Assembly: GCA_013388425.1 (NCBI GenBank) | Contig: JACADV010000035.1 | Location: forward strand, 1-64,000 | DNA length: 64,000 nucleotides | Source of the DNA: Thermoanaerobaculaceae bacterium | GTDB lineage: Bacteria; Acidobacteriota; Thermoanaerobaculia; Thermoanaerobaculales; Thermoanaerobaculaceae | Reading direction: 5' to 3' | Part shown: piece by piece, positions 18,494-25,968 of the stretch | How the letters are laid out: every line of letters begins with the position of its first letter | Numbering within the stretch: the stretch's first letter is position 1 | Program-made: the position numbers and the translations under genes | Notes under the pieces: generated by a model | The model's input: only the letters and a program-made list of their open reading frames with translations | Database searches by the model: none | What the model was told of the DNA's origin: nothing

Positions 18494-18522
18494 TTGCCGT
18501 TCTTCTCGGTGGGTGCTAGCTT
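18494..18522 (+). promoter_or_regulatory. sigma70-type promoter of AOR operon
   Basis: TTGCCG at 18494-18499 and TAGCTT at 18517-18522 are exactly 17 bases apart, and the -10 has an upstream TGC (extended -10 form). The predicted start near 18529 gives a leader of ~53 bases that contains GAGGTGGGG before the ferredoxin ATG. Confidence 0.6.
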
Positions 18523-18581
18523 TTCGCTGCTGGGAGTCGCAACCGCCTAGGAGTTGCGGCGGTCGAGCCGAGGAGGTGGGG

Positions 18582-18965
18582 ATGCGGATCCAGGTCACGG
18601 CCGAGGCGTGCAGCGGCTGCCGTCTGTGTCGGCAAGTCTGTGTGGTGGAGAAGTTTGGCGAGGTCAATCCGCGAAAGGCGCGGTTGCGCATCGAGGCGCG
18701 CTTTCCCGTCCCCGGCAGGTACGTGCCGCACGTGTGCGATCAGTGCGGGGACTGCGCCGAGGCCTGCCCCACCGAGGCCATCGTCCAGCGGGCCGACGGG
18801 GTGTACGAGGTGCAGCCGGAGCTGTGCACCGCCTGCGGCGTGTGCATTGACGTGTGCCCCGAAGGGGTAATGGTCAAGGGCCCGGACGACATCCCCTTCA
18901 AGTGCGACTTTTGCTGGCGCTGCACCGAGGTATGTAACACCGGCGCTCTCGTCCGGGTGGAATAG
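18582..18965 (+). CDS. four-cluster ferredoxin, AOR partner
   Basis: A 127-residue iron-sulfur protein with sixteen cysteines in four CxxCxxCxxxC groups (CSGCRLCRQVC, CDQCGDCAEAC, CTACGVCIDVC and CDFCWRCTEVC), so it should carry four [4Fe-4S] clusters. Proteins of this type act as the electron-transfer subunit next to tungsten aldehyde oxidoreductases. Nine bases separate it from the AOR gene. The ATG has a strong ribosome site (GAGGTGGGG). No flavin/NAD-linked third subunit is present in the operon, so electrons probably leave through ferredoxins. Confidence 0.88.
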   Translation: MRIQVTAEACSGCRLCRQVCVVEKFGEVNPRKARLRIEARFPVPGRYVPHVCDQCGDCAEACPTEAIVQRADGVYEVQPELCTACGVCIDVCPEGVMVKGPDDIPFKCDFCWRCTEVCNTGALVRVE

Positions 18966-18974
18966 GAGGGGACC

Positions 18975-20894
18975 ATGCTCAAGGGCTTCGGTGGCAGGCA
19001 GCTACGCATCAATCTCAGCACGGGGGAAATCCGCACCTCGCCCCTGGACCCGACGTTTGCGCGGAAGTGGTTGGGAGGGCGCGGCTTTGTCGCCAAGATC
19101 CTCTACGACGAGGTGCCCCGCAACGCCGACCCCTTTGGACCGGAGAACCGGCTCGTGGTGACCCCCGGTGTTTTCTCGGGCAACTTCGGCCCCTCGGGAT
19201 CCAAGTGCAGTTTTGGAGCGGTAAGCCCGCTCTCCAACGGCGAGGGCGACTCCACGGTGGGCGGGCACTTTGGCCCGGAGCTGAAGTTTGCCGGCTACGA
19301 CCTGATCGTTTTCCAGGGGATTTCGCCAAAACCGGTGTACCTGTTCATCGATGACGACCGCGTCGAACTGCGGGACGCCTCCGCCTACTGGGGCCAGGGC
19401 ACCATGGAAACGGAGGCAGCGCTCAAGCGGGATCTGGGCGAGGATTTCGAGATTGCTGCTGTGGGCCCGGCGGCCGAGAACCGCGTGGTGTTTGCCTGCA
19501 TTGGCCACGACTATGGGCGCCAGGCGGGGCGTTGCGGGGTGGGAGCCGTGATGGGGGGCAAACGCCTCAAGGCCATTGCCGTGCGGGGCACGCGCTCGAC
19601 ACCCCTCCACGACCTCCCTACCCTGAAGGAGCTGACGCTCCGGATCATCAAGCGCACGGCCCAGCACCCGAACATGGCCCCGTGGCAAAAGTACGGCACC
19701 GCTATGTTCGTGGGCTGGTCCAACGAGCACGGGGTCTACCCCACCCACAACTTCCAGACCACCTACTTCGACCGCTACGCGGGGATCGACGGCGGTCCGC
19801 TGGTGGAGCGCATCCTGGTCACCAATAAGGCGTGCTTTGGTTGCTGGATGAACTGCGGCAAGTACTCGAAGGTGCAGATCGAGGGGAAGGACACGGTGTA
19901 CGTGGAGGGCCCCGAGTACGAGACGGGTTCGCTGTGCGGGGGCAACTGCGGCTTCGACCAGATCGAACAGGTGGCCTACGTGAACTGGCTGTGCGATACC
20001 GTCGGTATCGACACCATGACCGGCGGCAACATCATTGCCTTTGCCATGGAGTGCTACGAGAAGGGGCTCATCACCCGCAAGCAACTGGAAGGGCACGAGC
20101 TGCGCTGGGGCAACCTGGAGGATGTGGAGCACTTTATCCGCATGGTAGTGGAACGGCGCGGGATTGGCGAGTACTTTGCCCGCGGCTACCAGGCAGCGGC
20201 CGCGTACATCGGTGGGGGGGCCGAGCGCTACACCTGCCAGGTGAAGGGGCAGGGGATGAGCGGCTACGACGGGCGCGGCGCCCCGGCGATGCTCCTGGCG
20301 TACATGACGGCGGACATTGGCGCGCACCACAACCGGGCGTGGACCATCACCATGGACGAGGATCTGGGCAAGGACGTGATCCGCGGCAAGGCCAAAGTCG
20401 TGGTGCACCTGCAGCATATCCGCCCGCTCTTCGACACCATCTCCTCCTGCCGGCTCTTCTGGGGGGAGATCGACGTCACCGACCAGGAACACATCGACGC
20501 CATCAAGCTGATGACGGGGTGGGACGACTTCACCCTGGAGGAGGCGATGCGGCTCTCGGAGCGCATCTGGAACCTGAACCGCGCCCACTTCTTGGAGCGC
20601 AACGGCGGACCGGGGCGAAAGTTCGACTACCCCAACGCCCGCTTCTACGAGGAGGCCGTGCCCAGCGGTCCGGCAAAGGGGGCGCGGCTCACCCTGGCCG
20701 ATCTGGACGTGATGCTGGACGAGTACTACGCCGCGCGCGGCTGGGGGCTGGACGGCAACCCCTCGCGGGAGGTCCTGGAAGATCTCGGGCTCGAGGACGT
20801 GGCGACCAACCTGGAGCGCGCGGGCCTGTTGGGGCAGCTCTCGGCCCCGCTGCCGCCGGTGCGGGGCGAGAAGTACAAGCCAAAGGCGTTCTGA
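18975..20894 (+). CDS. aor: aldehyde ferredoxin oxidoreductase (tungsten-pterin)
   Basis: A 639-residue member of the AOR family, which oxidises aldehydes to acids (or reduces acids) with a tungsten bis-pterin centre and one [4Fe-4S] cluster; oxygen-sensitive, cytoplasmic. The N-terminus (LRINLSTGEIRT) is typical. The pterin region has GGRGFVAKILYDEVP and GPENRLVVTPG; the cluster cysteines are in CFGCWMNC (~residues 290-297), with the fourth likely in ISSCRLFW (~residue 495). Length and motif order are normal. It overlaps the MoaD-like gene by one or more bases (TGATG). The upstream FNR-type site fits control by low oxygen. Confidence 0.93.
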   Translation: MLKGFGGRQLRINLSTGEIRTSPLDPTFARKWLGGRGFVAKILYDEVPRNADPFGPENRLVVTPGVFSGNFGPSGSKCSFGAVSPLSNGEGDSTVGGHFGPELKFAGYDLIVFQGISPKPVYLFIDDDRVELRDASAYWGQGTMETEAALKRDLGEDFEIAAVGPAAENRVVFACIGHDYGRQAGRCGVGAVMGGKRLKAIAVRGTRSTPLHDLPTLKELTLRIIKRTAQHPNMAPWQKYGTAMFVGWSNEHGVYPTHNFQTTYFDRYAGIDGGPLVERILVTNKACFGCWMNCGKYSKVQIEGKDTVYVEGPEYETGSLCGGNCGFDQIEQVAYVNWLCDTVGIDTMTGGNIIAFAMECYEKGLITRKQLEGHELRWGNLEDVEHFIRMVVERRGIGEYFARGYQAAAAYIGGGAERYTCQVKGQGMSGYDGRGAPAMLLAYMTADIGAHHNRAWTITMDEDLGKDVIRGKAKVVVHLQHIRPLFDTISSCRLFWGEIDVTDQEHIDAIKLMTGWDDFTLEEAMRLSERIWNLNRAHFLERNGGPGRKFDYPNARFYEEAVPSGPAKGARLTLADLDVMLDEYYAARGWGLDGNPSREVLEDLGLEDVATNLERAGLLGQLSAPLPPVRGEKYKPKAF

Positions 20895-21136
20895 TGATGA
20901 CCGTCTACCTCAAGGGCGGGGGGCTGTTGCGCGAGTACCTCCAGCCGGATGTCGACGAGTACACCCGGCGGGTGGAGGTAGCGGAGGGGCGTACGCTGCG
21001 GCAGATCCTGGAGGCCATTGGCATCCGCCCGGTGCACGTGGCCATGGCGTTCGTGGGCAATCGTCTCGTCAACCTCGCCTACGTCCCCAGCGACGGCGAG
21101 ACGATCACCCTGCGGCCACCGGTGCAAGGGGGCTAG
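20894..21136 (+). CDS. MoaD/ThiS-family sulfur carrier
   Basis: An 80-residue ubiquitin-like protein ending in Gly-Gly (RPPVQGG), the tail that is adenylated and thiocarboxylated to donate sulfur in pterin-dithiolene synthesis. It sits between AOR and a MoeB-like E1 and so probably supplies sulfur for the tungsten cofactor. Two consecutive ATGs (20894, 20897) overlap the AOR stop. No MoaE is adjacent, so it may use the cell's general MoaE or have a dedicated role. Confidence 0.85.
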   Translation: MMTVYLKGGGLLREYLQPDVDEYTRRVEVAEGRTLRQILEAIGIRPVHVAMAFVGNRLVNLAYVPSDGETITLRPPVQGG

Positions 21137-21937
21137 GTGGCGGCGTCGGGTGGCGGCCGCCGTGGCGGGGCGGGCGGGCGGGGGCGAAGCGGAGTGGCCG
21201 GGGAGGAGCGGTACGCCCGCCAGCTGGCCCTGCCGGGCCTGGGGGTGATCGGGCAGGAACGGCTGGCGCAGACCCACGTGGTGGTGCTCGGGGCCGGCGG
21301 GTTGGGTTTCCCAGTCCTCACCTACCTGGGCGCTGCTGGCGTGGGGCGCATCAGCTTCATCGATGCGGACGCGGTGGAGCTTTCGAACCTCAACCGCCAG
21401 GCCCTGTACACACCGGCCGAGGTGGGGCAGCGGAAGGTTTCGGTGGCGCTCGAGCGCCTGCGGAACTTTGCTCCCGAGGTGAACTGGGCAGGGACCGACG
21501 CGGCCATTACCCTCGAGCGTGCCCGTGGGTTGCTGGCGAACGCCCAACTGGCGGTGGATTGCGCCGACAACTTCTCGGCCCGCCGCATCCTGGCCGAGGC
21601 GGCCCGCCAGGCCCGCGTTCCCCTGGTGCACGGCGCCGTTGCCGGCTTTGAAGGGCAAGTGGCAGTGTTGCCGGGGGAAGGGCCGCCTTGTCTCCTCTGC
21701 CTGTATCCCGAGGGCCAGGGGAGCCAGGTGCCACCGCCGGTGCTCGGCGCAGTCGCTGGGGTGGTGGGATCGCTCATGGCCTGCGAGGCGATCCGTCTCC
21801 TCCTCGCCCTGGGTCCGCGGCGCACGGGTTCGGTGCTCCTGGTGGATGTGGAGCGGGGAACGTTCGATTGGCTGGCTATTCCAGCTCGGTCCGATTGCCC
21901 CTGGTGCAGCCCGGCGGTAGCTCGACCCCGGAGCTAA
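21137..21937 (+). CDS. MoeB/ThiF-family adenylyltransferase
   Basis: An E1-like enzyme (266 residues from the GTG at 21137) that activates the Gly-Gly tail of a MoaD/ThiS carrier with ATP. Nucleotide motif VVLGAGGLGFPVLTYLGAAG, then DADAVELSNLNRQ (Asp/Arg ATP contacts), CADNFSARR, and a structural zinc site made of CLLC (~residue 193) and CPWC (~residue 255). The rhodanese domain of longer homologues is absent. The first ~20 residues are Gly/Arg-rich and may not be translated; a later GTG before AGEERYARQ is plausible. It ends 62 bases inside the convergent transporter gene. Confidence 0.87.
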   Translation: MAASGGGRRGGAGGRGRSGVAGEERYARQLALPGLGVIGQERLAQTHVVVLGAGGLGFPVLTYLGAAGVGRISFIDADAVELSNLNRQALYTPAEVGQRKVSVALERLRNFAPEVNWAGTDAAITLERARGLLANAQLAVDCADNFSARRILAEAARQARVPLVHGAVAGFEGQVAVLPGEGPPCLLCLYPEGQGSQVPPPVLGAVAGVVGSLMACEAIRLLLALGPRRTGSVLLVDVERGTFDWLAIPARSDCPWCSPAVARPRS

Positions 21938-23048
21938 AGGCGGCGGTCACCGCCTGGAGTACCGCCGCTTCGGCTGCGTCGCCCATCCCCACGTCAACCA
22001 CGGTCACCGCCTCCGCTCCCAGCTCTGCCAGGAAGGCGGCCAGGAGGTGGCGGCGCAGCCCAATGACCACGACCGCCGGGGTACGGCGGGAGAGGGCGCG
22101 GTGCACCGCTGGCCAGTGCCCCCCGCCCCGCAGCTCCACCGGACCCAGCTCGTCGACCACCAACAGGCCGCGGGGCGGCCCAGCCTCCACCGCAGCGCGA
22201 GCCAGGGCGAAGCCTTCCCTTTCGAACTGGAACTGGGTTCCGTGCTGGCCGTGTTCGAGACCCACCCGACGGGCTAGCAGCGCGCGGCGACCGGTGCGGA
22301 GGTCCAGCACCTCAAAGCCGACCTTCTGGCCGTTTTCGCTGAGGGCCGGCTGCACGAACCCGTAGAGCGGGTAGCCGCGTTCCGCGAGCACCGTGGCGCA
22401 GCGCAGCAACAGCGGTGTCTTGCCTGTGCCCGACCGGCCCACGACCGCCACCACTGGCGGCACCGGGGTTGCGCCCAGGAGGGGGCGGAAGAGCTGGGAG
22501 TGGCCGCGCAGGGCAGCAGCGGCGGTGGCCTCCTCGGCAATGCGGGCCGTGTGGGCGAGCAACACCTCGGCAAGCCGCGGCAGGTGGCGCAGGCGGGGGC
22601 GACGCCGCCGGGAACGAACGGCCAGGGCAATCCAGGCGTCGCGCCCCGCCTCGGCCAGGTGCGGCAGGGAGTTGAGGGCCAACCCCAGGGCGAGGCCGAG
22701 GCGCGGCAAGTGCAGGCGAGCTGCCAGGAGGTGGAGATCGTCAGCGTCCAGGCGACGGGAGGCCACGGTGGTGACCAGGAGCAGCGCCAGGAGCCGAAGG
22801 AAGACCGTCAAGCCCACGTAGGCGCCCCGTTGCAGGCCCATGCTCCAGGCTACGGCCAGGGCGGTGGCGCCGGCGGCAGTGGCCGCCAAGAGCACGGAGT
22901 GCAAGACGGCGCGGGTGGGGAAGGAGCGGGGTTCGGCCAGGAGCACGGTGGCCCCGGCCAGGGCAAGGCCAAGAAGCTGCGCTGGAAGAGAGGGGAGAAG
23001 CGCGGCCACCAGTGCCACGACAGCGGTGAGCAGTGGGAGCCGCTTCAC
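21876..23048 (-). CDS. ECF transporter T component fused to THEP1-type NTPase
   Basis: A 390-residue two-part protein. Residues ~1-195 resemble the EcfT/CbiQ transmembrane coupling protein: several hydrophobic helices (LTAVVALVAALLPSLPAQLL and others) and a cytoplasmic Arg-rich region with two coupling-helix-like segments (DAWIALAVRSRRRRPRL, ATAAAALRGH). Residues ~215-385 form a P-loop NTPase of the THEP1/NTPase_1 type: Walker A VVGRSGTGKT, a GFVQPALSENGQKVGF segment, and Walker-B-like LLVVDELGPVEL. Start is the GTG at 23048. I do not know this fusion as a standard architecture. It ends tail-to-tail with the AOR operon. Confidence 0.78.
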   Translation of the reverse strand: MKRLPLLTAVVALVAALLPSLPAQLLGLALAGATVLLAEPRSFPTRAVLHSVLLAATAAGATALAVAWSMGLQRGAYVGLTVFLRLLALLLVTTVASRRLDADDLHLLAARLHLPRLGLALGLALNSLPHLAEAGRDAWIALAVRSRRRRPRLRHLPRLAEVLLAHTARIAEEATAAAALRGHSQLFRPLLGATPVPPVVAVVGRSGTGKTPLLLRCATVLAERGYPLYGFVQPALSENGQKVGFEVLDLRTGRRALLARRVGLEHGQHGTQFQFEREGFALARAAVEAGPPRGLLVVDELGPVELRGGGHWPAVHRALSRRTPAVVVIGLRRHLLAAFLAELGAEAVTVVDVGMGDAAEAAVLQAVTAAFSSGVELPPGCTRGNRTELE

Positions 23049-23629
23049 GTCCCCCCCCGCAACCGACGCGTCACCCTCCCCGCCACCCGCCAGGAGAAGG
23101 CGCCCGCCACTGCACCTGCAAGCGCCGCGGCGCCGGTAAAGGCGAGTACGAGCTGGAGGGTGGCCGAACCGCGCCAGCCAAACAGAGCGGCAACGCGGGA
23201 GAGGGCCCGCGCCCATCCGGCTGCCCCCTCCCCTCCCACCACCACCAGTACCCACAGCAGCTGCTGCAACGGCGCCGTGGCCAACGCGAGAGCGCCGCCT
23301 GTGATCGCACCGGCGGCGGTGGAGCCGGTGGCGGTCATGGCTAGCTCCACCACCGTTGCCTCGGCCAGGATGCCGGTCATCGGGCCGATCACGAAGCCAC
23401 CCAGGGAAAAGACCTTGAGGAAGGCAGCCACCACCCCCATGAGCAGGCTCATGCCCACCGCCGGGTAGAGGCGTCGGGCGGTGACGAGGCAGAGCACGCC
23501 CACCGCCGCCATGAGGAGACCGGCAAAGGGGATGCGGGCGGCGCTCAGGACGGTGCCCAGGGAGAGCTCCACCGCCCCCCACAAGCTGCCAAAGAGGGCA
23601 GCGTAGGTCCAGGGGCGGATGTCCCTCAC
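23045..23629 (-). CDS. ECF transporter substrate-binding (S) component-like membrane protein
   Basis: A 194-residue protein with about six hydrophobic segments and the small-residue-rich pattern of ECF S components (ALFGSLWGAVELSLG at the start, then FKVFSLGGFVIGPMTGILAEA, like the conserved L1/TM3 area). Its GTG overlaps the stop of the ATPase (GTGA), and its stop overlaps the T-component GTG. Substrate not determinable: no riboswitch or biosynthetic partner is seen. S component call rests on topology plus position between ATPase and T component. Confidence 0.7.
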   Translation of the reverse strand: MRDIRPWTYAALFGSLWGAVELSLGTVLSAARIPFAGLLMAAVGVLCLVTARRLYPAVGMSLLMGVVAAFLKVFSLGGFVIGPMTGILAEATVVELAMTATGSTAAGAITGGALALATAPLQQLLWVLVVVGGEGAAGWARALSRVAALFGWRGSATLQLVLAFTGAAALAGAVAGAFSWRVAGRVTRRLRGGT

Positions 23630-23856
23630 GGCCCCTCCACCACCCTGCCCCGCTCCAGGCGCAGGCGCCGGTGGGCGAGCGTGGCCAGCTCGTACCGGTG
23701 CGAGAGCAGCAGGTACGATCGGCCGGCCGCCGCCTGCTCCAGGACCGAGGTGGCAAACTCCTCCAGGTCGCCCGGGTCCAGCCCCTGAGCCGGTTCGTCC
23801 ACCACCACCACCGCCGGCTCCAGCGCGTCCAGCACGGCGTGGAGGAGGCGGCAACG
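23626..23856 (-). pseudogene. 3' remnant of the double ECF ATPase after an in-frame amber codon
   Basis: Continues the reading frame of the upstream ATPase without any shift. The stretch after the TAG at 23857-23859 reads RCRLLHAVLDA and then carries Walker B and D-loop (AVVVVDEPAQGLDP) and the H-loop (YLLLSHRYELA), which are exactly the parts missing from the second nucleotide-binding domain. The stop codon therefore splits one gene. Either a single-base nonsense change (GAG or CAG to TAG), a sequencing error, or read-through would explain it. Confidence 0.7.
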
Positions 23857-24942
23857 CTACCCCCGCGACAGCGTCCAGGGGGCCCGCGCCGCCAGCGTCT
23901 CCAGCCGGTGCCGCCGCAGCAGCTCCCCCGCGTGGGCGAGGGGGAGGCCGGCCAAGGCCAGCTCCTGCGCCACGGTGGGGGCGAAGAGCTGCAGCTCCGC
24001 CGCCGGCATGGCGAGGGCTGTAAACGGCGGTCGGCACAGGAAGCGGGTGTCCCTGGAGAGCTTGATACCGGCCGACGCAGCGTGCCCAACCAGGACGCGG
24101 GCCAGGGAGGACTTGCCGGAGCCGTTGGGCCCGGAGAGGGTGACGATCTCCCCCTCCCGCAGGTGGAGCTCGGCACCGCCCAGCAGCTCCTGCCCGCCCC
24201 GGGAGAAACCCAAGGCGCGCACGGCCAGCACCGGTGCGCCCGGCGCGTGGGTGGGGGAGGGGAGGGAGGGAGGTGCGGGGGTGGGGATGGGCGCGAGGGT
24301 GCCGTCGCGGAGCTCCAACCAGCGGTTCACCACCGCGCCGAGCCGCCAGGGCGCCTGCTCGGCGAGCACGACACTGCTGCCGGCAGCCCGGGCAGCCGCG
24401 AGGGCGGCACGCAACCCCTCGATACCTTGGGGGTCCAGGTGGGTGCACGGCTCGTCCAGCAGGGCGAGGGAAGGAGCCTGGGCCAGGCAGGTGGCCAGCC
24501 CCACCCGTTGTCGCTCGCCGGAGGAAAGCTCCACGCTGCGACGCTCCAGCAAACGGGTAACGCCCAGCGCCTCCACCACCGCAGGGAGGGGTGGGCGGCC
24601 GTGCCGCCTGGCAGCGGCCGCAAGTTCCTGGGCGGGGGTGGCGAGGAAGAGCTGAGCCTCGGGCCGATCCAGGCAGGTGCTGACGTGCGGGGCGCGCTGG
24701 GCCGGGTCGAGGTCGGCCACCTCGTCGCCGTCCAGCAGGATGGCGCCCCGGACCTGCCCACCTCGGACCCAGGGGAGGAGGCCTGCAATGGCAGCCAGGA
24801 GCGACGTCTTGCCACACCCCGAGCGGCCGCAGATGCCCACCACCTCGCCGGGGGCCACCGCAAGCTCTAGCCCGGCCAGCAGGGGCGGGGCACCGGCCGC
24901 CAGGCGCACCGTGAGGTCGTGCAGGTACAGACGGGGTTTCAT
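23857..24942 (-). CDS. ECF-type double ABC ATPase, truncated by amber codon
   Basis: A 361-residue product before the stop. The first nucleotide-binding domain is complete: Walker A ICGRSGCGKT, Q-loop DRPEAQLFL, signature LSSGERQR, Walker B SLALLDEPCTHLD. Its usual switch histidine is missing (VVLAEQAPWRL instead of an EH/SH form). The second has Walker A LSGPNGSGKSS but ends at the signature motif (TLSRG then TAG). Adjacent S and T components and a downstream frame with Walker B make this the energy-coupling EcfA1-EcfA2 fusion, normally ~435 residues. If the stop is real, this ATPase cannot work normally. Confidence 0.8.
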   Translation of the reverse strand: MKPRLYLHDLTVRLAAGAPPLLAGLELAVAPGEVVGICGRSGCGKTSLLAAIAGLLPWVRGGQVRGAILLDGDEVADLDPAQRAPHVSTCLDRPEAQLFLATPAQELAAAARRHGRPPLPAVVEALGVTRLLERRSVELSSGERQRVGLATCLAQAPSLALLDEPCTHLDPQGIEGLRAALAAARAAGSSVVLAEQAPWRLGAVVNRWLELRDGTLAPIPTPAPPSLPSPTHAPGAPVLAVRALGFSRGGQELLGGAELHLREGEIVTLSGPNGSGKSSLARVLVGHAASAGIKLSRDTRFLCRPPFTALAMPAAELQLFAPTVAQELALAGLPLAHAGELLRRHRLETLAARAPWTLSRG

Positions 24943-25436
24943 GGACCCTTGCCACCTCCAGCAAAGGGGTCCACGTCACCAGGGTGGAAGCGCAGGGCGC
25001 AGCGGAGCTGGAGCGACTCGTTCCGGTCCAGGGCAGCGTAAGTGCCAGTGGCGGTGGCCAGGAGCGCGCCATCAGCCGAGAGGGCCTGGCCCTGCGCGCG
25101 CACGTACCGACCGCGAGCGGTCACCACCCAGGCCGCAAGCTCCATGGCCGAGCCCAGCCGGCTCGCCCGGTGGAAGCGTACCGTGAGCTCGCCGGTGTAG
25201 CAGAAGGAGCCCCGCTCCATGGCGCAGGCCCAGGCCAGGGCCTCGTCGAAGAGGGCGAGGAGGATGCCGCCGTGGAGGCGGTCCGAGTACCCCGCATGGC
25301 CCGCGCCAGGCACGAAGCGCCCGCCCACTTGCCGCGTTTCCTCCTCCCACCACCAGCGCATGCCAAGGGTGGCGTGGTTGACAGCAGGGTCGCCGCAGAT
25401 GGGACAGGGCGGGTAGGTGGGGAAGGGGCGCCGCAC
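24939..25436 (-). CDS. PaaI-like hotdog-fold thioesterase
   Basis: A 165-residue protein with a hotdog domain: GGRFVPGAGHAGYSDRLHGG and ILLALFDEALAW form the central-helix catalytic pattern (HGGxxxALFDEA) of PaaI-type acyl-CoA thioesterases. Before it, PCPICGDPAVN contains a Cys pair often found in this subgroup. It is first in the operon, overlapping the ATPase ATG by ATGA. How a thioesterase relates to the transporter is not known. The GTG start lies six bases from a TAGCAT box. Confidence 0.8.
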   Translation of the reverse strand: MRRPFPTYPPCPICGDPAVNHATLGMRWWWEEETRQVGGRFVPGAGHAGYSDRLHGGILLALFDEALAWACAMERGSFCYTGELTVRFHRASRLGSAMELAAWVVTARGRYVRAQGQALSADGALLATATGTYAALDRNESLQLRCALRFHPGDVDPFAGGGKGP

Positions 25437-25442
25437 CGGCGT

Positions 25443-25471
25443 ATGCTAGCAACTCCCTGCCAACTTGCCAG
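25443..25471 (-). promoter_or_regulatory. promoter of thioesterase-ECF operon, leaderless spacing
   Basis: On the minus strand CTGGCA (25466-25471), 17 bases, TAGCAT (25443-25448), then six bases to the GTG. Transcription would begin at or next to the start codon. Confidence 0.45.
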
Positions 25472-25515
25472 AAGGCGCTGGGGAGGGGTCGCGCTACAAT
25501 GAAGGCGGAGGTTGC

Positions 25516-25968
25516 GTGCATCCCTTCCTCGTCCCTGGCGCCTGGTTGCTGGAAGGAAACTACTTCCCGACGGGCAAGACCCCGCAACGGGTGAGCGGGG
25601 TGACGCAGACACGGGCCTCCGAGGCGTTCCCGGAGACCATCGAGGTGCAGGGGGAAATCCGCGATGCGGACGATCCTACCTCCAAGCCGGTGCTCAGCAC
25701 CTTCCACCTGGACGTGGTGGGCCGCCAGCAGGTGCGCTTCCGCATGGACTCGATCCCGCTGGGGACCGTGCTTTTGGGTCGAGGGTTCTACGATGATGCG
25801 GCCATGGCGCTCCAGTACGCCTCCCCGGACCGGCGAATCCTCGGCTTTGAGAGCTACACCAGTTGCGGCGAGGGAGTGCTGCGTACCACCGGCGTGCTGC
25901 TGGCGGACGGGGCACTGGTCACCTCGTGGCTGGCCAAGCTGGAGCGCATCGCGGCCGGTACCCGCTAG
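25516..25968 (+). CDS. conserved-looking hypothetical protein
   Basis: A 150-residue soluble protein, no signal peptide or membrane segment. The pattern of short beta-strands (HPFLVPGAWLLEGNYFP, TIEVQGEIRD, STFHLDVVGRQQVRFRMDS) and a conserved-looking ILGFESYTSCGEG suggest a small beta-barrel or lipocalin-like fold, but no family is recognised. The GTG at 25516 is preferred over upstream frames because GGCGGAGG lies five bases before it; a TACAAT box is at 25495-25500. Function unknown. Confidence 0.6.
   Translation: MHPFLVPGAWLLEGNYFPTGKTPQRVSGVTQTRASEAFPETIEVQGEIRDADDPTSKPVLSTFHLDVVGRQQVRFRMDSIPLGTVLLGRGFYDDAAMALQYASPDRRILGFESYTSCGEGVLRTTGVLLADGALVTSWLAKLERIAAGTR

Follow-up and report, generated by a model that had tools for sequence, protein, structure and literature searches.

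A THEP1-type NTPase joined to a predicted EcfT subunit in a vitamin-type ECF system tied to molybdenum and tungsten cofactor enzymes in Thermoanaerobaculia

An open reading frame on a contig of a Thermoanaerobaculaceae bacterium (JACADV010000035.1; the stretch analyzed, 64,000 nucleotides long, is called the window below) would encode a T (coupling) subunit, for an ECF-type ABC importer, that carries a THEP1-family NTPase at its cytoplasmic C-terminus. Besides this T-NTPase fusion, the predicted importer has a double ABC ATPase and an S component whose family is unrecognized. It belongs to an undescribed vitamin-type ECF system tied to enzymes of molybdenum and tungsten (Mo/W) cofactors; we found no description of it in the literature searched, with most subscription literature lying outside the scope of that search. 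At the level of sequence we observed the parts, their fusion, the operons, riboswitches in some relatives and gaps in cofactor biosynthesis. We infer that the cargo is most likely the molybdenum cofactor (Moco) or its molybdopterin core, which the cell would scavenge from its surroundings.

The frame is a single uninterrupted one of 390 residues on the minus strand (21876–23048, reading from 23048 to 21876), and its GTG start overlaps the stop of the S gene (GTGA). Its 3' end has a 62-base overlap (21876–21937) with a convergent MoeB/ThiF-type gene. The first-pass annotation had proposed that an EcfT-like half and a THEP1-type NTPase are fused here, with the motifs GRSGTGKT and LVVDELGP, and this was borne out. 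For the C-terminal half (residues 198–372; 21933–22457, minus strand) domain searches gave a strong match to NTPase_1 (PF03266; E = 1e-19, 71 bits against a cut-off of 23.9, residues 200–346) and a second one to DUF2478 (E = 1.6e-8). Both motifs are present on the minus strand as Walker A (22416–22439) and Walker B (22140–22163), and NTPase_1 was matched by 17/17 members of the family. The best matches by both sequence and fold were 2I3B and 1YE8/THEP1 (fold match to 2I3B E = 2e-7, TM 0.71 over the target), so that Walker A, a DExGP Walker B and the fold are all shared with THEP1; unlike THEP1, the NTPase here is attached to the T subunit of an ECF system or, in some relatives, shares a single chain with S and T.

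The N-terminal half (residues 1–185; 22494–23048, minus strand) matched CbiQ (PF02361) over residues 6–185 with E = 6e-4 and 20 bits, under the 25-bit cut-off. The same profile was matched by seven of the 17 T-NTPase family members (best E = 2e-6), and one relative (G396) passed the cut-off with 26.0 bits. When a profile of the T half was aligned with genuine CbiQ proteins of related genomes, hhalign gave 82% (E = 1e-5), with both Arg coupling motifs inside the alignment; the second, ALRG, lies at residues 179–182 by alignment (22503–22514, minus strand). These matches in relatives and the alignment over the Arg motifs uphold the weak call, and we take the T half to be a genuine EcfT relative. 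An AlphaFold2 model of the fusion averaged a pLDDT of 80, with its least confident stretches in the linker and the C-terminal tail; it placed helices at residues 3–180 and, beyond residue 198, an alpha/beta domain. Fold searches with the fusion returned mainly NTPase matches and no EcfT match, so the EcfT assignment rests on the profiles.

The border between the two halves is read through in all 17 aligned sequences, where no internal start or stop is conserved; one relative (L142) has no start codon there at all. Searching genome contigs for close relatives with the whole fusion as query gave no match, and an alignment of the S component did find relatives, in Acidobacteriota including Thermoanaerobaculia and Holophagae. 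T-NTPase fusions were found in 19 genomes of the class, the window's own included, most of them full length and 43–51% identical to the window's, so the fusion cannot be put down to misassembly of a single metagenome-assembled genome. Three further genomes of the class carry S, T and NTPase in one chain, giving 22 carriers in total.

In the window the operon runs from a thioesterase through the double ABC ATPase and the S component to the T-NTPase gene, which is last, with 4-base overlaps in the sequence. The thioesterase (hotdog, 4HBT, by profile; 24939–25436, minus strand) is first in this coupled cluster and also lies upstream of the ABC gene in two relatives (L141, L084). Both of these also keep the arrangement of the thioesterase gene with a divergent gene at 25465–25968. 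Two ABC ATPase domains of the EcfA-A' type are encoded in one gene of about 438 codons (23626–24942, minus strand), which is intact in relatives but broken in the window by an in-frame TAG (23857–23859, minus strand) that takes the place of the Glu in the second ABC signature: the window reads LSRG and then stop, and 15 relatives read LSRGE. The TAG could be either a sequencing error or decay. That the window operon is decaying, with the fusion a remnant behind a broken ABC gene, is unlikely: the nonsense codon does fall on the Glu of the GE kept in those 15 relatives, but it takes only a single base change, as expected of an error in sequencing or assembly, and the S and T-NTPase genes of the window are unbroken and well conserved. 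With this codon in the ABC gene, it is uncertain whether the window's own importer works.

The S gene (23045–23629, minus strand; 194 aa, with a GTG start overlapping the ABC stop as GTGA) matched no Pfam or NCBIfam family, and Trep_Strep was touched by only 5/38 members of its family (best E = 1e-4). Its model has seven helices (pLDDT 93.5). The best solved match was the ECF S component 5EDL, which we take to be YkoE (probability 1.00, TM 0.54, E = 0.14), followed by TmRibU (probability 0.93). On the strength of the model, the gene is predicted to encode an ECF S component of an unrecognized family. YkoEDC exemplifies those Group I ECF transporters whose two ATPases are fused. The window system resembles this type in its operon, which holds one gene each for a double ABC protein, S and T, in an S fold nearest to 5EDL and in a T with Arg coupling motifs; it differs in the C-terminal THEP1 NTPase of T, in an S without a sequence-family match and in its Mo/W-cofactor context.

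That context begins in the window itself. Genes for a 4Fe-4S ferredoxin (18504–18965, by profile), its partner aldehyde:ferredoxin oxidoreductase (AOR, a W/Mo-pterin enzyme; 18975–20894, by profile), a MoaD/ThiS-like sulfur carrier (20894–21136, translation read by eye) and a MoeB/ThiF-type adenylyltransferase (21137–21937, by profile) all lie on the plus strand, convergent with the transporter operon. Across the family, a Mo/W-enzyme or cofactor gene was found within about 6.5 kb at 33 of 56 S loci, a count in which several Bacteroidales loci are closely related and hence not independent. AOR recurs beside the distant S homologs L091 and L098, xanthine dehydrogenase lies immediately 3' of T-NTPase in L140 and also, together with MocA and XdhC, in L143, and a Nap-like enzyme lies upstream in L144 and L145. 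MocA was found at L018 and MobB at L086. Formate dehydrogenase with MobA occurs in Ignavibacteriales (L056, L057), and a DMSO-reductase-type enzyme with MobA at L058–L063, L071 and L078; many Bacteroidales have the DMSO-reductase-type catalytic subunit, FeS and membrane subunits, S-T-NTPase and MobA.

Four loci carry the Moco riboswitch RF01055, with 57–76 bits against a cut-off of 36. It lies upstream of CMD-MobA-S-T(-NTPase) in L065, L069 and L070, and L086 has the order riboswitch, TonB receptor, MobB, S. In L070 (5959–6985) the S-T frame is broken and the NTPase truncated. Rfam scans that took in the window and many of the A/S/T-NTPase loci, though not L141, L143, L146 and L150, found no Moco riboswitch there. 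TonB-dependent receptors flank S in six genomes (G381, G093, G048, G035, G475, G407; loci L086, L098, L151, L069, L046, L049), and are candidate outer-membrane receptors for Moco or Mo/W. Taken as a whole, the link of the importer family to Mo/W cofactors is strong. The first-pass annotation had guessed at processing of an incoming vitamin or cofactor; context, riboswitches and pathway gaps give this guess a direction, the Mo/W cofactor.

The NTPase is found in other arrangements as well. The S-T-NTPase triple fusion also occurs in Bacteroidales, Ignavibacteriales and other Acidobacteriota. Loci with it are L054, L056–L069, L071, L078, L019/L053, L079–L081 and L152. In hhalign its middle domain still matches the T halves of the window group at 95%; it has no CbiQ match and no second Arg motif, and no ABC gene of the operon's type was found in the examined flanks of these loci. 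S and NTPase are adjoining separate genes in L036/L087, L039, L040/L090 and L043/L093, and the NTPase also adjoins AOR genes (L020, L096). The stand-alone THEP1-type NTPases at L020 (9633–10502, minus strand) and L096 (7404–7976, minus strand) are on the same strand as the adjoining AOR. As separate NTPase genes lie beside both S and AOR, the NTPase tracks the S component or the cofactor and not the coupling subunit alone. MobB (PF03205), the GTP-binding adaptor of MobA, is a point of comparison, being likewise a P-loop NTPase of MobA/Moco operons, and the S-T-NTPase gene lies beside MobA at many loci. However, the match of the NTPase to PF03205 was weak (E = 0.008) and covered the Walker A region only, and L086 holds a true MobB in addition to S and a separate NTPase; with the whole domain unmatched, an identity with MobB was rejected.

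Cofactor biosynthesis was then compared across the class, in which MoaC occurs in 117 of 149 genomes and MoeA_N in 112; the window genome itself is only 83% complete. MoaC was absent from 19/22 carriers against 13/127 non-carriers (Fisher's exact test 8e-13), it was present inside the two carrier families in 3/22 carriers against 9/15 others (p = 0.005), and the association held among genomes at least 90% complete (p = 0.004), all p-values that ignore shared ancestry. Only G374, G486 and G474 among the 22 carriers have MoaC. The MoaA C-terminal domain was absent from 13/15 tested T-NTPase carriers and 3/3 triple-fusion carriers of the class. MoeA parallels MoaC in being mostly absent, except in G356, and the gap in MoaA and MoeA includes G144 (100% complete), G380 (99%) and G294 (96%). 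Carriers nevertheless keep Moco enzymes: as PF00384 alone overcounts (NuoG and ActB-like proteins), selected proteins were examined for Moco-binding domains, which gave PF01568 proteins in G144, G482, G475, G494 and G473, MoCoBD proteins in G488 and G494, and AOR in the window.

We expected that the Bacteroidales carriers of the triple fusion would also be without biosynthesis, and this was refuted: most have MoaC, which lies beside a MoaA-like gene where inspected (L189, L190). Loss of the pathway is therefore confined to Thermoanaerobaculia. In at least four fairly complete MoaC-less genomes (G489, G491, G471, G078) the system was not found; its absence from G471 may reflect a contig break (L196), only NuoG was seen in G078, and MoaC is absent from G489 and G491 without explanation. 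MoaE (PF02391) was not found in the two carrier families (37 genomes) or in the Bacteroidales G401, G403, G404, G406 and G408, even where MoaC, and often also MoaA and MoeA, occur. As it is missing in MoaA-containing relatives too, MoaE was uninformative as a discriminator of substrates; its distribution suggests a non-standard dithiolene-forming step in these groups.

The lost biosynthesis, the kept enzymes, the riboswitches of some lineages and the TonB receptors make import of Moco or molybdopterin the best reading, and on balance we think it probable, by a modest degree, that this is an ECF importer of such cargo with a tethered NTPase that helps to receive or process it. Several observations fit it poorly: three carriers (G374, G486, G474) have the importer and yet keep MoaC, as do most Bacteroidales carriers of the triple fusion, two genomes (G489, G491) lack MoaC and were not found to have the importer, and the TonB receptors could instead serve a metal chelate.

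An alternative is an ECF-type importer of molybdate or tungstate, perhaps chelated, that would substitute for ModABC, TupABC or WtpABC. Those importers likewise serve Mo/W enzymes, but they are conventional ABC importers of oxyanions without an S component or a tethered NTPase. The Moco riboswitches and all of the Mo/W contexts would fit any gene of Mo/W supply, and in most carriers ModA-like proteins match weakly or are missing; strong matches (E < 1e-20) were found in none of the tested class carriers but one, with PF13531 a noisy marker that other binding proteins match too. In several MoaA-containing relatives a ModA-like protein adjoins moaC/moaA, and this, with the lack of strong ModA-like matches in the tested carriers, also counts in favor of Moco import. 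Import of a finished cofactor would explain the joint loss of MoaA, MoaC and MoeA, which molybdate import would leave unexplained in carriers that keep Moco enzymes, and a TonB receptor is unexpected for a small oxyanion, although a molybdophore is possible. We regard an oxyanion cargo as distinctly improbable.

That the cargo is a precursor from early in the pathway (cPMP) or some other pterin, the later steps being left to enzymes that we did not recognize, is more doubtful still. The MoaD-like and MoeB genes that adjoin the AOR of the window would suit it, and the lack of MoaE even in MoaA-containing relatives and the tested Bacteroidales implies a non-standard step somewhere, but most carriers lack MoeA, the protein of metal insertion, as well. 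An unrelated vitamin (a thiamine precursor, cobalamin or riboflavin) placed near Mo enzymes by chance is very improbable, for although the nearest solved S folds are 5EDL and the riboflavin-binding RibU and cobalamin is likewise served by TonB receptors, the Mo/W context is seen repeatedly in Acidobacteriota, Bacteroidales and Ignavibacteriales, and Moco riboswitches precede four of the loci.

Import of Moco or molybdopterin would proceed as follows. In some relatives a TonB receptor would carry the cargo through the outer membrane, the S component would bind it, and the ABC pair, acting through the Arg motifs of T, would drive its release into the cytoplasm. There the NTPase, with MobA, MocA or MobB where present, may receive or process the cargo, which would be destined for AOR, xanthine dehydrogenase, formate dehydrogenase or DMSO-reductase-type enzymes. 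Hand-over, trapping, gating and a second energy-coupling step are guesses at the role of the tethered NTPase, as is that of a motor in the triple fusions; that the NTPase there stands in place of the ABC motor is, on its own, much less likely.

For those Thermoanaerobaculia that lack MoaA, MoaC and MoeA, Moco may be a true vitamin, imported finished or as molybdopterin by an ECF transporter with an NTPase-bearing T, an idea that we put forward tentatively and would rate a little below an even call. In one account (PMC9793310), uptake of exogenous Moco is described as yet to be examined or observed in organisms beyond C. elegans. The class carriers may take up Moco ready-made, which is not known from bacteria so far, and the gene set, the pathway gap, the riboswitch of some relatives and the outer-membrane receptors make bacterial Moco salvage directly testable. 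The importer bears on the movement of this cofactor between organisms, and it places the THEP1 NTPase family in a concrete context.
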